A DNA stretch of 50,806 nucleotides, from NCBI GenBank assembly GCA_027318865.1, contig DAHVOJ010000009.1, forward strand, positions 1 to 50,806. Reading direction: 5' to 3'. Positions 42,605 to 47,279 of the stretch are shown one piece after another. A model generated the notes under the pieces. It had not been told where the DNA came from. It saw only the letters and a program-made list of their open reading frames with translations, and did not search any database. The first letter of the stretch is position 1. Each line of letters starts with the position of its first letter. The translations under genes were made by a program, and so were the position numbers. This DNA is from a bacterium (GTDB taxonomy: Bacteria; SZUA-79; Acidulodesulfobacterales; Acidulodesulfobacteraceae).

Positions 42605-42712
42605 TTCTTATCAAGAGCGGTAGAGGGACGGGCCCTTTGAAACCGCAGCAACCGGTTCGATTTCAATAAAATCGGTGCTAATTCCCGCAGGTTTATTCCT
42701 GGAAGATAAGAA
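42605..42712 (+). promoter_or_regulatory. SAM-I (S-box) riboswitch aptamer
   Basis: P1 strand TTCTTATC (42605-42612) pairs with GATAAGAA (42705-42712). Between them is the S-box core: CAAGAGCGG, GAGGGACGGGCCC, GAAACCGCAGCAACCGG, CGGTGCTAATTCCCGCAGG and GGAAGATAAG. AAGAAGA (42708-42714) can alternatively pair with TCTTCTT (42733-42739) of the terminator, so SAM-stabilised P1 would free the terminator and switch the operon off. It controls the thrC-like gene and the sulfur-carrier genes behind it. Confidence 0.96.
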
Positions 42713-42725
42713 GAAACGAGTTTTT

Positions 42726-42768
42726 AAAAACCTCTTCTTCCGTATTTTCAGGAAGAAGAGGTTTTTTT
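42726..42768 (+). terminator. Riboswitch expression-platform terminator
   Basis: AAAAACCTCTTCTTCC (42726-42741) pairs perfectly with GGAAGAAGAGGTTTTT (42751-42766), a 16-bp stem with 9-nt loop, followed by a T-run. Its 5' arm competes with the aptamer P1 3' strand (antiterminator). Confidence 0.94.
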
Positions 42769-42814
42769 GTTATGCAGGATTTAATTTTAACACAATAATA
42801 AATAAGGAGAAAAA

Positions 42815-44059
42815 ATGTTCGTTAAAGGTCTGAAATGCAGGGAATGCGGCAAAGAATACCCTGATAGCCCGCTTTATGTTTGCGATTACTGTTTTGGTCC
42901 GTTAGAAGTGGATTACGATTACGATAAAATAAAAAAGGAAATAACGAGGGAGAAAATAAAATCACGCGATGCAAATATGTGGCGGTATCGGGAACTTCTT
43001 CCGATAAAAGGAGAAATAAAAATCGGTAAAAACGTGGGTTACACTCCGCTCGTAAAAGCCGATAACCTAGCAAAAGCTCTCGGCGTTAAAGAAATATACG
43101 TTAAAAACGATGCCATAAACTTCCCTACGCTATCTTTTAAAGACAGGGTCGTATCGGTAGCCGTTGCAAAAGCTAAAGAATTCGGTTTTAAAACAGTCGC
43201 CTGCGCTTCTACCGGAAACCTCGCTAACTCCGTTGCGGCTCTGGCGGCTTCTTCCGGCTATGAAAGTTTCGTATTTATACCGTCCAACCTTGAAATAGGA
43301 AAGGTATTGGGAACCCTTATATACGACACCAATCTTGTTAAAATTAACGGCAGTTACGATAAAGTCAACAGGCTCTGCACCGAAATAGCCGGCAAACACA
43401 GTTGGGCATTTGTAAATATCAATTTAAGGCCGTATTATGCGGAAGGGTCAAAATCCCTTACTTTCGAGATGCTGGAACAACTTGGATTCAAAGCCCCCGA
43501 CAACGTCGTAGTTCCTATGGCGGGAGGGTCTTTAATCACCAAAGTAGGAAAAGCGATAGACGAATTCGATTACTGCGGCTTACTTAAGGAAAAACCTCAT
43601 ACTAAAATTTTCGGGGCCCAAGCTGCCGGTTGCAATCCGATAACCGCTACGGTTAAGGAAAAAAGAGAATTTATAAAACCGGTCAGAACGCCGGATACTA
43701 TCGCAAAATCCCTTGCGATAGGAAATCCGGCGGACGGCTACTACGCCACCGACCTGATGAATAAAACCGGAGGATACGGCGAAGACGCCGCCGACGAAGA
43801 AATAATAGAAGGCATGAAACTGCTTGCCGCTACGGAAGGCATATTTACCGAAACCGCCGGCGGAGTTACGGTTGCGGTGGCAAAAAAACTTATCGAAAAA
43901 GGATATATAAACAAAAACGAAACCACCGTGCTGGCTATTACCGGAAACGGGCTTAAAACCCTGGAAGCCTTAAGCGGAAAATTGAAAGAAGCGCCCGTTA
44001 TCGAACCAAATTTGGAAGAATTCGAGAAAGTTCTTGCAAAAATTAAAGGAAAAAAATAA
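42815..44059 (+). CDS. Threonine-synthase-like PLP enzyme, candidate homocysteine synthase
   Basis: 414 residues, start after AAGGAG. The N-terminal zinc ribbon has C8-x2-C11 and C23-x2-C26. The PLP lysine is K109 in NFPTLSFKDR; the phosphate-binding STGNLANS and the glycine loop AGGSLI are present. By family it is a threonine synthase (ThrC, COG0498), which acts on O-phosphohomoserine. Its context is not threonine synthesis: it follows a SAM riboswitch and heads a sulfur-carrier operon. I recall from the literature a Streptomyces ThrC homologue (MetM) that works with a MoaD-like carrier (MetO) to make homocysteine from O-phosphohomoserine; this gene may be an equivalent. Ordinary threonine synthase remains possible. 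Confidence 0.75.
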   Translation: MFVKGLKCRECGKEYPDSPLYVCDYCFGPLEVDYDYDKIKKEITREKIKSRDANMWRYRELLPIKGEIKIGKNVGYTPLVKADNLAKALGVKEIYVKNDAINFPTLSFKDRVVSVAVAKAKEFGFKTVACASTGNLANSVAALAASSGYESFVFIPSNLEIGKVLGTLIYDTNLVKINGSYDKVNRLCTEIAGKHSWAFVNINLRPYYAEGSKSLTFEMLEQLGFKAPDNVVVPMAGGSLITKVGKAIDEFDYCGLLKEKPHTKIFGAQAAGCNPITATVKEKREFIKPVRTPDTIAKSLAIGNPADGYYATDLMNKTGGYGEDAADEEIIEGMKLLAATEGIFTETAGGVTVAVAKKLIEKGYINKNETTVLAITGNGLKTLEALSGKLKEAPVIEPNLEEFEKVLAKIKGKK

Positions 44060-44081: not shown

Positions 44082-44597
44082 ATGCCTATAAAAGTAAGAA
44101 TACCGACACCGTTAAGAACTTTAACGGGCGGCAAAGCCGAAGTAGAAGCGGCCGGCTCGAACATAATCGAAATTATCGACGACTTAGAAAAAAATTTTTC
44201 GGGTATTAAAGAAAGAATATGCGAATCAAACGATCAGGTGAGAAGATTCGTAAACGTTTATCTTAACGACGAGGATATAAGATTTATCGACAACATAAAT
44301 TCAACCGTTAAAGACGGGGACACTGTGTCGATAATTCCTGCAATCGCAGGCGGCGCACCCGAAAAAAAAAAGTTTTATCTTAACTATCCGCAGGAAGTAA
44401 TTAAAGAACCGTTAATTTATTTAGTCGGGAAAAACTATAACGTCATTACTAATATAAGAAGCGCAAGCATATCCAACGACATCGGTATAATAGCCATAGA
44501 ACTGGAAGGGGAATCCAATGACATCGAAAAAGCGGTAAAGTTTTTGGAATCAAGAGGCGTAACGGTGGAGCCTATCGTCTTAGACGTAGTAGAATAA
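44082..44597 (+). CDS. MoaD/ThiS-like sulfur carrier fused to a NIL domain
   Basis: 171 residues from ATG 44082, with AAAGGAGG 7 nt upstream. Residues 1-91 are a ubiquitin-like MoaD fold (VRIPTPLRTLTGGKAEVEA... DGDTVSIIPAIAGG) ending in Gly90-Gly91. Residues ~97-165 are a NIL domain (FYLNYPQEVIKEPLIYLVGKNY...GIIAIELEGE), the ligand-binding module known from the methionine importer ATPase MetN. In carriers the GG must be C-terminal to be adenylated and thiocarboxylated; here it is followed by A92 and 79 more residues. Proteolysis after GG, by the JAMM enzyme of this operon, would be needed. The 15 codons upstream of 44082 overlap the thrC-like gene and are not used. Confidence 0.88.
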   Translation: MPIKVRIPTPLRTLTGGKAEVEAAGSNIIEIIDDLEKNFSGIKERICESNDQVRRFVNVYLNDEDIRFIDNINSTVKDGDTVSIIPAIAGGAPEKKKFYLNYPQEVIKEPLIYLVGKNYNVITNIRSASISNDIGIIAIELEGESNDIEKAVKFLESRGVTVEPIVLDVVE

Positions 44598-44664: not shown

Positions 44665-45468
44665 TTGGAATTTACCGAAGAACGGATTAAAAGATATGCA
44701 AGGCATATAATATTGCCGGAAGTCGGAGGAGAAGGACAGGGGAAACTGCTTTCCTCAAAAGTCCTCCTTATAGGAGCCGGCGGGCTCGGCGCTCCATGCG
44801 GATATTATCTTGGAGCGGCAGGAATAGGAACTCTCGGAATAGTCGATTACGATACCGTCGATTTATCCAACCTCCAAAGACAGATATGGCACGGAACGGC
44901 GGACGTCGGAAGATACAAGGTCGATTCCGCAAGAGATTCCATAGAGCGCATCAATCCCGATGTAAAAGTCGTAACGTATAAAGAAGGCATTAACGCCGCA
45001 AATATCAAAGACATAATAAAAGATTACGACGTGGTCGTAGATGCGACCGATAATTTTCCGACGAGATATTTAATAAACGATGCCTGCCATTTTATGAAAA
45101 AGCCTTTGGTTTACGGCTCAATATTCAGGTTTGACGGGCAGGCTACCGTATTTCTGCCGGATGAAGGCCCCTGCTATAGATGCCTTTTTCCGACTCCTCC
45201 GCCTGCCGGACTCGTTCCGAGCTGTCAGGAAGCCGGAGTTCTGGGCGTTCTTCCCGGCGTAATAGGCGCGATTCAGGCAAACGAAGCCATAAAAATAATC
45301 CTCGGCATAGGTCGGACTTTAAACGGAAGACTTCTTATTTACGATGCCCTCGATATGAAATTTACAGAAATGAAACTGAGGCAGGATAAGGCATGCCCTT
45401 TGTGCGGCGAAAACCCGACGGTTTTTGAATTAATCGAATACGGCGACCTGTGCGAATTTAAAAATTGA
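44665..45468 (+). CDS. ThiF/MoeB-family E1-like adenylyltransferase
   Basis: 267 residues, TTG start with GGAGG upstream. The Rossmann nucleotide site is GAGGLG (37-42), followed by DLSNLQRQ (67-74) and DATDN (126-130). The structural zinc cysteines are C170/C173 (CYRC) and C244/C247 (CPLC), with a conserved Cys187 in VPSCQEAG. It activates the carrier's C-terminal Gly as acyl-adenylate for sulfur transfer. It has no rhodanese domain, so sulfur must come from another protein, plausibly the TusA-like one. MoeB and ThiF cannot be told apart by sequence; context favours the carrier next door. Confidence 0.92.
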   Translation: MEFTEERIKRYARHIILPEVGGEGQGKLLSSKVLLIGAGGLGAPCGYYLGAAGIGTLGIVDYDTVDLSNLQRQIWHGTADVGRYKVDSARDSIERINPDVKVVTYKEGINAANIKDIIKDYDVVVDATDNFPTRYLINDACHFMKKPLVYGSIFRFDGQATVFLPDEGPCYRCLFPTPPPAGLVPSCQEAGVLGVLPGVIGAIQANEAIKIILGIGRTLNGRLLIYDALDMKFTEMKLRQDKACPLCGENPTVFELIEYGDLCEFKN

Positions 45469-45476
45469 CAAATATT

Positions 45477-45612
45477 ATGAAATAATTGCATATGCAGTCA
45501 CTGCGAGCATTAGCGGACGGAGTCCGGCATGCAAACGCACGCCGTTTGCGCTCACCAATCTGTCGTTATGGAAACAATCCGTCGTTACAGTTTAAAAGAT
45601 GAAATAATTGCA
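45477..45612. repeat. REP-like element flanked by 14-bp direct repeats
   Basis: ATGAAATAATTGCA occurs at 45477-45490 and 45599-45612. The 108 bp between are less AT-rich than the surroundings and contain CACTGCGAGC (45500-45509), the inverted pair GCAAACG/CGTTTGC and repeated GTCGTTA. CACTGCGAG...CAATC resembles the widespread intergenic 'CATTGCGAG' repeat family. The element separates the E1 gene from the tusA-like gene. Whether the flanks are target duplications is unknown. Confidence 0.5.
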
Positions 45613-45636
45613 AATAACTGCGGGGGGTCAGAATAA

Positions 45637-45885
45637 ATGTCCGAATTTAAAGAAAACGGCGAATTAAATATTAAAGGGGAAATCTGCCCTTTTACCTTCG
45701 TAAAATCGAAACTTGCCTTAGAAAAGATGAAAAAAGGTGAGATTTTAAGGGTAATAGTGGACTATGAACCGGCGATAAGAAACGTTCCGCGTTCTATGGA
45801 GGAACAGGGACATAAAGTTTTATCCGTCAATAAAATTAACGACACCGATTATGAAATTATCGTGGAAAAAGATGGAAAAAAATAA
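45637..45885 (+). CDS. TusA/SirA-like sulfurtransferase
   Basis: 82 residues, the usual size. The active-site Cys17 is in IKGEICPFTFVKSKLALEKMKKGEIL, a variant of the TusA CPxP motif, with the downstream strand-helix pattern of the fold. TusA-type proteins carry a persulfide from a cysteine desulfurase to acceptors. In this operon it could load sulfur on the adenylated carrier. It overlaps the cysM-like gene by 14 bp. Confidence 0.88.
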   Translation: MSEFKENGELNIKGEICPFTFVKSKLALEKMKKGEILRVIVDYEPAIRNVPRSMEEQGHKVLSVNKINDTDYEIIVEKDGKK

Positions 45886-46813
45886 ACCCGCATACAACGA
45901 TACATCGTATATATTCAGCTCTCCGTCAAATATCGGCGGCACGGGAATCGTTCTTTTAAATAAAATTATTAATCCCGTTGCATCGGGTTCAAAACTGTAC
46001 GCCAAACTCGAAGGGCTTAATCCCGGCGGCTCGGTAAAAGACAGGCCTGCGCTGTATATGCTTAAAAATGCCTTAGAAAAAGGCTTTATAAAAGACGGAA
46101 CCTCGATAATAGATTCCTCTTCGGGCAACACCGGTATTTCATATGCTATGCTCGGTGCATTTCTCGGAATTAAAGTGAAAATTTACGCGCCTTCAAATAT
46201 GAGCGAAGAAAGAAAGAAAATAATGCGTTTATACGGAGCCGAATTAATTCTTACCCCTGCGGAAGAAAGTCACGACGGAGCCATTAAGCGGGCGGAGGAA
46301 GAATACGAAAAGGGCGGCAAAAATAAATATTATATGCCTGACCAGTATAATAATCCCTATAATCCGATTGCGCACTATGAAACGACGGCGACGGAACTTA
46401 TTAACCAGACGGGCGGAAACATAGATTATTTTGCAACCGGCATCGGCACGGGCGGAACCATACTGGGTGTCGGCAAAAGACTTAAGGAATTTAACGATAA
46501 AATAAAAATTATCGCCATAGTGCCGGACAGCGAAATGCACGGAATAGAAGGCTGGAAATATAACTATTCCCTTAATTTCGCAGGCTTCGACGCCGATAAA
46601 ATAATAGACGATTTCGTAAAAGTCGATACCGAAGGCAGTTACGCTATGCTTAAAAGGCTCGTCGGGGAAGAAGGAATTTTATGCGGATTTTCTTCTGGAG
46701 CCAACGTTTACGGCATCCGCAAACTGACCGAAAAATATAAAGGAAATTTTGCTACGGTGCTTCCCGACACCGGGTCGAGATATCTTTCGACGCGTGTATT
46801 TAACGAGATTTGA
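45872..46813 (+). CDS. CysM-like cysteine synthase family PLP enzyme
   Basis: 313 residues from ATG 45872 (45851 would add 7). The PLP lysine is K56 in LEGLNPGGSVKDRPALYML; the substrate loop is SSSGNTG (82-88) and the phosphate loop GIGTGGT. It belongs to the cysK/cysM group. The segment SVKDRPA and C-terminal PDTGSRYLST look like mycobacterial CysM, which uses a CysO thiocarboxylate with O-phosphoserine, rather than ordinary CysK; this is similarity by eye. It starts inside the tusA-like gene, so the two are coupled. Product presumably cysteine or a carrier-cysteine adduct. Confidence 0.85.
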   Translation: MEKNKPAYNDTSYIFSSPSNIGGTGIVLLNKIINPVASGSKLYAKLEGLNPGGSVKDRPALYMLKNALEKGFIKDGTSIIDSSSGNTGISYAMLGAFLGIKVKIYAPSNMSEERKKIMRLYGAELILTPAEESHDGAIKRAEEEYEKGGKNKYYMPDQYNNPYNPIAHYETTATELINQTGGNIDYFATGIGTGGTILGVGKRLKEFNDKIKIIAIVPDSEMHGIEGWKYNYSLNFAGFDADKIIDDFVKVDTEGSYAMLKRLVGEEGILCGFSSGANVYGIRKLTEKYKGNFATVLPDTGSRYLSTRVFNEI

Positions 46814-46841: not shown

Positions 46842-47279
46842 ATGGCAATTATAATTCCAAAAAACGAACTGGAAATAATAAAAAAACATGCCGCCGATAT
46901 TTTTCCTTACGAAGCATGCGGCGGACTTCTCGGAAAAATCGAAGGAGAAAACAAGTTCATCCTAAAGGCATATCCTGCCGAAAACCGCTACGGAAAAATT
47001 ACATGGGACAGTTTTGAAATCGAGCCGAAAGATATATTGGAAATGGATAAATTTTGTATGAAAGAAAACCTCGATATATTAGGATTTTACCATACCCATC
47101 CTAACCACCCGGCAATTCCCTCGAACTTCGATATAAACGCATCGTGGCCTTTTTATTCGTACGTTATTCTTTCCGTAAAAGGCAACGCTCCGGAAAGCGT
47201 AGCCGATATTAAAAGCTATCTTATGCCGGATAGAAATTCTGCTCCGGTTTATGAAGAGATAGTAATAAAAGAAGATTAA
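46842..47279 (+). CDS. JAMM/Mov34 metalloprotease (Mec-like)
   Basis: 145 residues. The JAMM metal site is complete: E24 (FPYEACGGLLG), H84 and H86 (YHTHP), S94 and D97 (HTHPNHPAIPSNFD, H-x-H-x7-S-x2-D). Such enzymes hydrolyse peptide bonds next to ubiquitin-like carriers: Mec releases cysteine from CysO, HcyD trims the Wolinella HcyS carrier. Here both roles are possible: exposing Gly91 of the fused carrier and/or releasing product. It is the last gene of the operon, before the hairpin at 47323-47358. Confidence 0.92.
   Translation: MAIIIPKNELEIIKKHAADIFPYEACGGLLGKIEGENKFILKAYPAENRYGKITWDSFEIEPKDILEMDKFCMKENLDILGFYHTHPNHPAIPSNFDINASWPFYSYVILSVKGNAPESVADIKSYLMPDRNSAPVYEEIVIKED

Follow-up and report, generated by a model that had tools for sequence, protein, structure and literature searches.

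The window, by which we mean the whole stretch of 50,806 nucleotides that was analyzed, contains an operon in which a SAM-I riboswitch is followed, in this order, by genes for a threonine-synthase-like (ThrC-like) enzyme, a fusion of a MoaD/ThiS-type sulfur carrier with a NIL domain (MoaD-NIL), an E1-like enzyme, a TusA-like protein, a CysK-like enzyme, and a JAMM metalloprotease (Table 1). The terminator region of the riboswitch (42712-42775) is predicted to fold with -24.5 kcal/mol (z -5.3). Between the genes for E1 and TusA (intergenic gap 45477-45615), a stretch of approximately 105 bases lies between near-perfect 17-nt direct repeats (ATGAAATAATTGCATAT) and resembles a small insertion; the start of this stretch was not found a second time within the window. 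The genome belongs to the SZUA-79 group, which, judging from this name and from acid-mine-type sources, we take to be probably related to the order Candidatus Acidulodesulfobacterales.

Table 1. Features of the MoaD-NIL operon, with positions in the window and the evidence for each assignment.
Feature	Position	Strand	Evidence
SAM-I riboswitch aptamer	42605..42712	+	Rfam RF00162, 92.6 bits, E 1e-21, above gathering score
Riboswitch expression platform: intrinsic terminator hairpin and U run	42726..42768	+	Fold and sequence
Threonine-synthase-like PLP enzyme (MetM-like), proposed O-phosphohomoserine-dependent homocysteine synthase	42815..44059	+	PALP 2.6e-68, thrC TIGR00260
MoaD/ThiS-NIL fusion, 171 aa	44082..44597	+	ORF with ATG start, AGGAGG-type site upstream
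Sulfur-carrier half, residues 1-91, GG end	44082..44354	+	Pfam ThiS 5-91 (6.8e-15)
Proposed cut site between G90-G91 and A92, irregular interdomain linker 87-93	44349..44357	+	AlphaFold2 model, GG invariance
NIL half, residues 92-171	44355..44594	+	Pfam NIL 100-163 (1e-12); stand-alone homologues in other phyla
E1-like adenylyltransferase, MoeB/UbaA family, without rhodanese domain, TTG start	44665..45468	+	ThiF 3.3e-85
TusA-like sulfurtransferase	45637..45885	+	Pfam TusA 9.9e-22
CysK/CysM-like PLP enzyme; true start perhaps slightly downstream	45851..46813	+	PALP 1.7e-63, cysKM
JAMM metalloprotease, E24/H84/H86/S94/D97 intact	46842..47279	+	Prok-JAB 6.5e-18

The initial annotation had described a MoaD fold that ends at G90-G91 and a chain that continues through A92 into a NIL domain, and this architecture agrees with the sequence and with the Pfam matches to the two halves, both of which exceed the cut-off. 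The carrier half is closer to CysO/MetO-type carriers than to the MoaD of molybdopterin synthesis, and its closest folds are the CysO structures 4n6e and 3dwg. In an AlphaFold2 model of the fusion, the Gly-Gly motif (GG) lies inside an irregular stretch between two folded domains, with a mean pLDDT of 86 and a pTM of 0.51 that leaves the relative placement of the domains unsure. A Pfam search revealed no self-splicing domain in the fusion protein. The NIL half is similar to the NIL domain of MetN by Pfam profile and by fold (Foldseek matches to MetN NIL domains), while the pairwise match to MetN NIL is weak and has a four-residue gap in a hairpin. The proposal that the NIL half is a methionine sensor was thus not borne out beyond family kinship, and methionine sensing has to be regarded as a guess.

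Within the SZUA-79 phylum, the MoaD-NIL fusion was identified in 29 of 30 genomes, mostly with 82-95% identity, a count that takes in one genome with only the contig-cut end of the fusion. The GG is invariant in all 29 full-length copies of the phylum, in which residue 92 is A (22 copies), S (3), T (3), or V (1), and residue 93 varies freely. A JAMM was found in 27 of the 30 genomes and in 27 of the 27 fusion genomes that could be assessed; among the three JAMM-less genomes, G022 is without the fusion as well, and the contigs of G010 and G023 break off shortly after the fusion gene. In genus g2, the JAMM is encoded outside the operon, approximately 5-9 kb from the fusion, yet it has been retained. 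NIL domains occur in these genomes only as part of the MoaD-NIL fusion, and neither a split nor a paralogous form of MoaD-NIL was found in the 30 genomes; a partial match in G026 is located at a contig end.

The presence of a complete JAMM site in the same operon, as stated in the initial annotation, was confirmed for all five residues (Table 1), and these are unchanged in 7 of 7 aligned members of the phylum. The JAMM of the operon is the single Prok-JAB protein found in the window's genome, and the only other ThiS-family match of this genome is a MoaD-MoaE fusion (L148:1066-1746, minus strand, contig C55), which has an internal GG too. Because a second carrier fusion with an internal GG is thus accompanied by a single Prok-JAB, one JAMM may serve both MoaD-NIL and MoaD-MoaE. 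Most genomes of the phylum encode MoaD and MoaE as one fused protein, but in five genomes of genus g2 they are separated by an in-frame TAA, which follows GGLK in the two junctions that were read. In these five genomes, MoaD-NIL is still fused and the JAMM is retained; more generally, genomes in which MoaD-MoaE is split or no such fusion was found have kept the JAMM. Two JAMM genes, 92% and 79% identical to that of the window, are present in one genome of the genus (G013; L129, L146).

For comparison outside the phylum, a scan of GTDB genomes yielded 80 related loci. The initial annotation had suggested looking for split MoaD and NIL genes in related genomes, and such genes are indeed present among these loci: outside SZUA-79, no fused form was found, and every other lineage with both domains encodes MoaD and NIL separately. 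This also supports the idea that the NIL half can be an independent protein, since relatives encode it as a separate gene. ThrC-like, MoaD, and NIL proteins are encoded by separate neighboring genes in Zetaproteobacteria, Verrucomicrobia, Omnitrophota, and others, and no NIL gene was found beside the carrier gene in the Nitrospinota loci. Stand-alone NIL proteins near MetM-type or carrier genes were noted in several phyla (L059, L064, L077, L053, L088, and L111). The carriers of split MoaD/NIL loci end at GG or at GG followed by 1-3 residues, and those of ThrC-like loci without NIL have tails of up to 5 residues past GG. For most Streptomyces loci among L082-L117, a MetO-type identity of the carrier was considered and rejected, as these are CysO-type. 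A c-di-GMP-I riboswitch was observed in a Nitrospirae locus related to the operon (L055:779-865, minus strand).

The most similar NIL proteins originate from L059, L064, and L077, which share a gene set of TusA, MoaD, NIL, CysK-like enzyme, and JAMM, within which an E1 gene was seen at L059 and L064. At the latter two loci, the stop codon of MoaD overlaps the proposed start codon of NIL as TTGA, and a 1-nt insertion at this overlap would result in GG followed by three residues and KK, the same spacing as in the fused GG-APE-KKKFYLNY. A single change to the fused state suffices in the MoaD tree, and the fused rows form a single clade with a support of 100 in the ThrC-like tree. Because relatives encode MoaD and NIL separately, at L059 and L064 with the overlapping TTGA, the fusion appears to be derived, and each half can plausibly function on its own. 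The fusion would have a single origin at the base of the SZUA-79 phylum, probably a small frameshift that joined two adjacent or overlapping genes, and it may have been tolerated because a JAMM was already encoded in the operon.

A sulfur carrier requires a free C-terminal glycine for its adenylation. Since in the fusion an extra domain directly follows this required GG end, trimming by the protease of the same operon is very probably needed, and we propose that the fusion is a sulfur-carrier precursor that the JAMM of the operon cuts after G91, giving a GG-ended carrier and a separate NIL protein. Both the cleavage and the exact bond are what we infer from split homologues with a free or nearly free GG, from the co-occurrence of fusion and JAMM, from the lone JAMM of the genome, and from the precedent of MoaD-MoaE; taken together, these make a cut after G91 indirectly well supported. 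The invariant GG beside the variable residues 92 and 93 was likewise counted in favor of cleavage, as was the modeled position of GG in the irregular interdomain linker. As a whole, the explanation that combines cutting by the JAMM, a thiocarboxylate-dependent homocysteine route, and a single origin of the fusion is in our judgment the probable one.

The distribution of the protease was treated with more caution. Tailed carriers are accompanied by a JAMM in 30 of 31 cases, compared to 8 of 13 for free-GG carriers (Fisher p 0.006, or p 0.02 if L089 is counted as JAMM-bearing); allowing for kinship, however, this association is non-significant, as the tree gives only 1-2 supported independent pairs. 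The presence of a JAMM was therefore rejected as proof of trimming, the correlation resting on too few independent lineages. Moreover, the JAMMs Mec+ and HcyD reportedly hydrolyze adducts between carrier and amino acid, so that a JAMM would be expected in the operon even without cutting of a precursor. This precedent, together with the JAMMs that accompany carriers in no need of trimming (free GG at L077 and L107), favors the alternative that the JAMM only hydrolyzes such adducts, as Mec+ does, while the fusion is cut by another protease or by itself. We consider this unlikely, given that the Pfam search revealed no self-splicing domain in the fusion, that the JAMM family has a precedent for such a bond, and that no second Prok-JAB was found in the genome.

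It is even less probable that the fusion is no carrier at all and stays uncut as a regulator (e.g., with NIL holding MoaD on an enzyme) while another protein carries the sulfur. The MoaD-related two-domain protein 1v8c of Thermus was crystallized with 165 of its 168 residues, which indicates that a chain of this kind can stay uncut, at least in crystallization conditions, and in a genome that is 87% complete an unseen carrier is possible, judging by the genome alone. However, apart from the MoaD-MoaE fusion, no further ThiS-family protein was found in this genome, the GG is invariant in the fusion copies, and split homologues in the same operon context end at or near GG. A shorter carrier could also be obtained without any proteolysis, namely through slippage on the A10 run just past the GGAPE codons, and 19 of 29 copies indeed have a run of 10-12 A at the junction. 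Yet the other 10 copies, from several genera, have a broken run (5-7 A), and slippage would still give a product with residues past GG; the lack of conservation of the run led us to reject this explanation, to which we give hardly any credence. With regard to cutting by the JAMM, a further reading, according to which the fusion is a zymogen whose NIL domain, by binding methionine or some other product, gates the access of the JAMM to the GG bond, is a long shot; if true, carrier release would throttle the pathway in addition to the SAM riboswitch. The suggestion that the uncut fusion could be a storage form is unsupported.

Following the proposed cut by the operon's JAMM, the E1 would adenylate G91, and sulfur, probably arriving through TusA, would convert the carrier into a thiocarboxylate, from which the ThrC-like enzyme would form homocysteine for methionine using O-phosphohomoserine; this carrier may also serve the CysK-like enzyme. 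This substrate and the enzyme activities are what we infer from comparison with the MetM/MetO route, which makes homocysteine from O-phosphohomoserine and which the operon looks like. The ThrC-like gene adjoins the gene of a MoaD/ThiS carrier, a hallmark of MetM/MetO, and its product is 52.7% identical to that of a Streptomyces locus (L106) with a SAM riboswitch upstream and a carrier gene after it. Furthermore, of 10 loci tested, 7 have a SAM-I riboswitch close to the homologous gene. A very long branch separates the ThrC-like enzyme from the canonical ThrC of the genome, which is encoded in a separate hom-thrC locus. Reading of the neighbors by eye showed that this cluster (L001) consists of hom, the canonical thrC, and a phosphoglycerate-mutase-like gene, and the last of these may encode the homoserine kinase.

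As for other routes, a profile search that detected its controls identified no DUF39 (HcyBio) protein of the DUF39/NIL-ferredoxin pathway to homocysteine in any of the 30 genomes, and a MetY/MetB route was not found in them either, with PF01053 matches that are weak, partial, and at most 37 bits. The best PF01053 match in the window's genome was dismissed, since by eye it resembles a class V aminotransferase. Owing to the absence of DUF39, the weak and partial PF01053 matches, the MetM-like kinship, and the riboswitch, the operon is the best candidate for homocysteine synthesis on sequence grounds.

It is already known that JAMMs cut MoaD fusions and that homocysteine synthesis can depend on a thiocarboxylate, while the literature searched contained nothing on a MoaD-NIL fusion as a JAMM substrate, fixed in one phylum. 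The fusion represents a natural gene fusion that was apparently tolerated owing to a pre-existing ubiquitin-type protease, fixed phylum-wide, with the unfused state visible in relatives, and it offers a simple substrate for probing JAMM specificity. In addition, the operon suggests by which route these uncultured bacteria are likely to make homocysteine, and the system bears on what stand-alone NIL proteins do alongside MetM-type operons in several phyla.

Among known systems, HcyS-Ala/HcyD/HcyF/MetY of Wolinella (Krishnamoorthy and Begley 2011) reportedly comprises a JAMM that removes an Ala after GG, an E1, and thiocarboxylate-dependent homocysteine synthesis. The residue after GG is mostly Ala here too, an E1 is present, and a JAMM-removed tail is proposed; however, this tail is a whole domain rather than one extra Ala, and the place of MetY acting on O-acetylhomoserine is taken by a ThrC-like enzyme. 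CysO/CysM/Mec+ of Mycobacterium resembles our operon in the linkage of a CysK-like enzyme and a JAMM to a carrier, and the closest solved carriers are 3dwg of this system and 4n6e of Amycolatopsis; it reportedly serves cysteine rather than homocysteine synthesis, without NIL and without a ThrC-like enzyme. The Thermus protein 1v8c likewise carries a second domain behind a MoaD domain within one polypeptide, but the whole-chain match, at an rmsd of about 16, does not identify its C-terminal domain as NIL. JAMM cutting of MoaD fusions was predicted generally by Iyer and colleagues in 2006 (PMC1779556), and DRJAMM (DR0402) of Deinococcus is needed to activate MoaD-MoaE, which it cuts to leave a C-terminal Gly (PMC8832034). 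Both fusions are linear, have two folded domains and an internal GG, and the cut shown there is proposed here, whereas the partner there is MoaE of molybdopterin synthesis and here NIL in a methionine operon. Finally, MetM/MetO of Streptomyces (Hasebe 2024, as described in PMC12172450) forms homocysteine from O-phosphohomoserine, and both a SAM riboswitch and a neighboring carrier gene are described for MetM of S. albulus. On that description, our operon shares with MetM/MetO the threonine-synthase homologue after a SAM riboswitch and the adjacent carrier gene, and differs from it in that the carrier is fused to NIL and in that E1, TusA, CysK-like, and JAMM genes share one operon.
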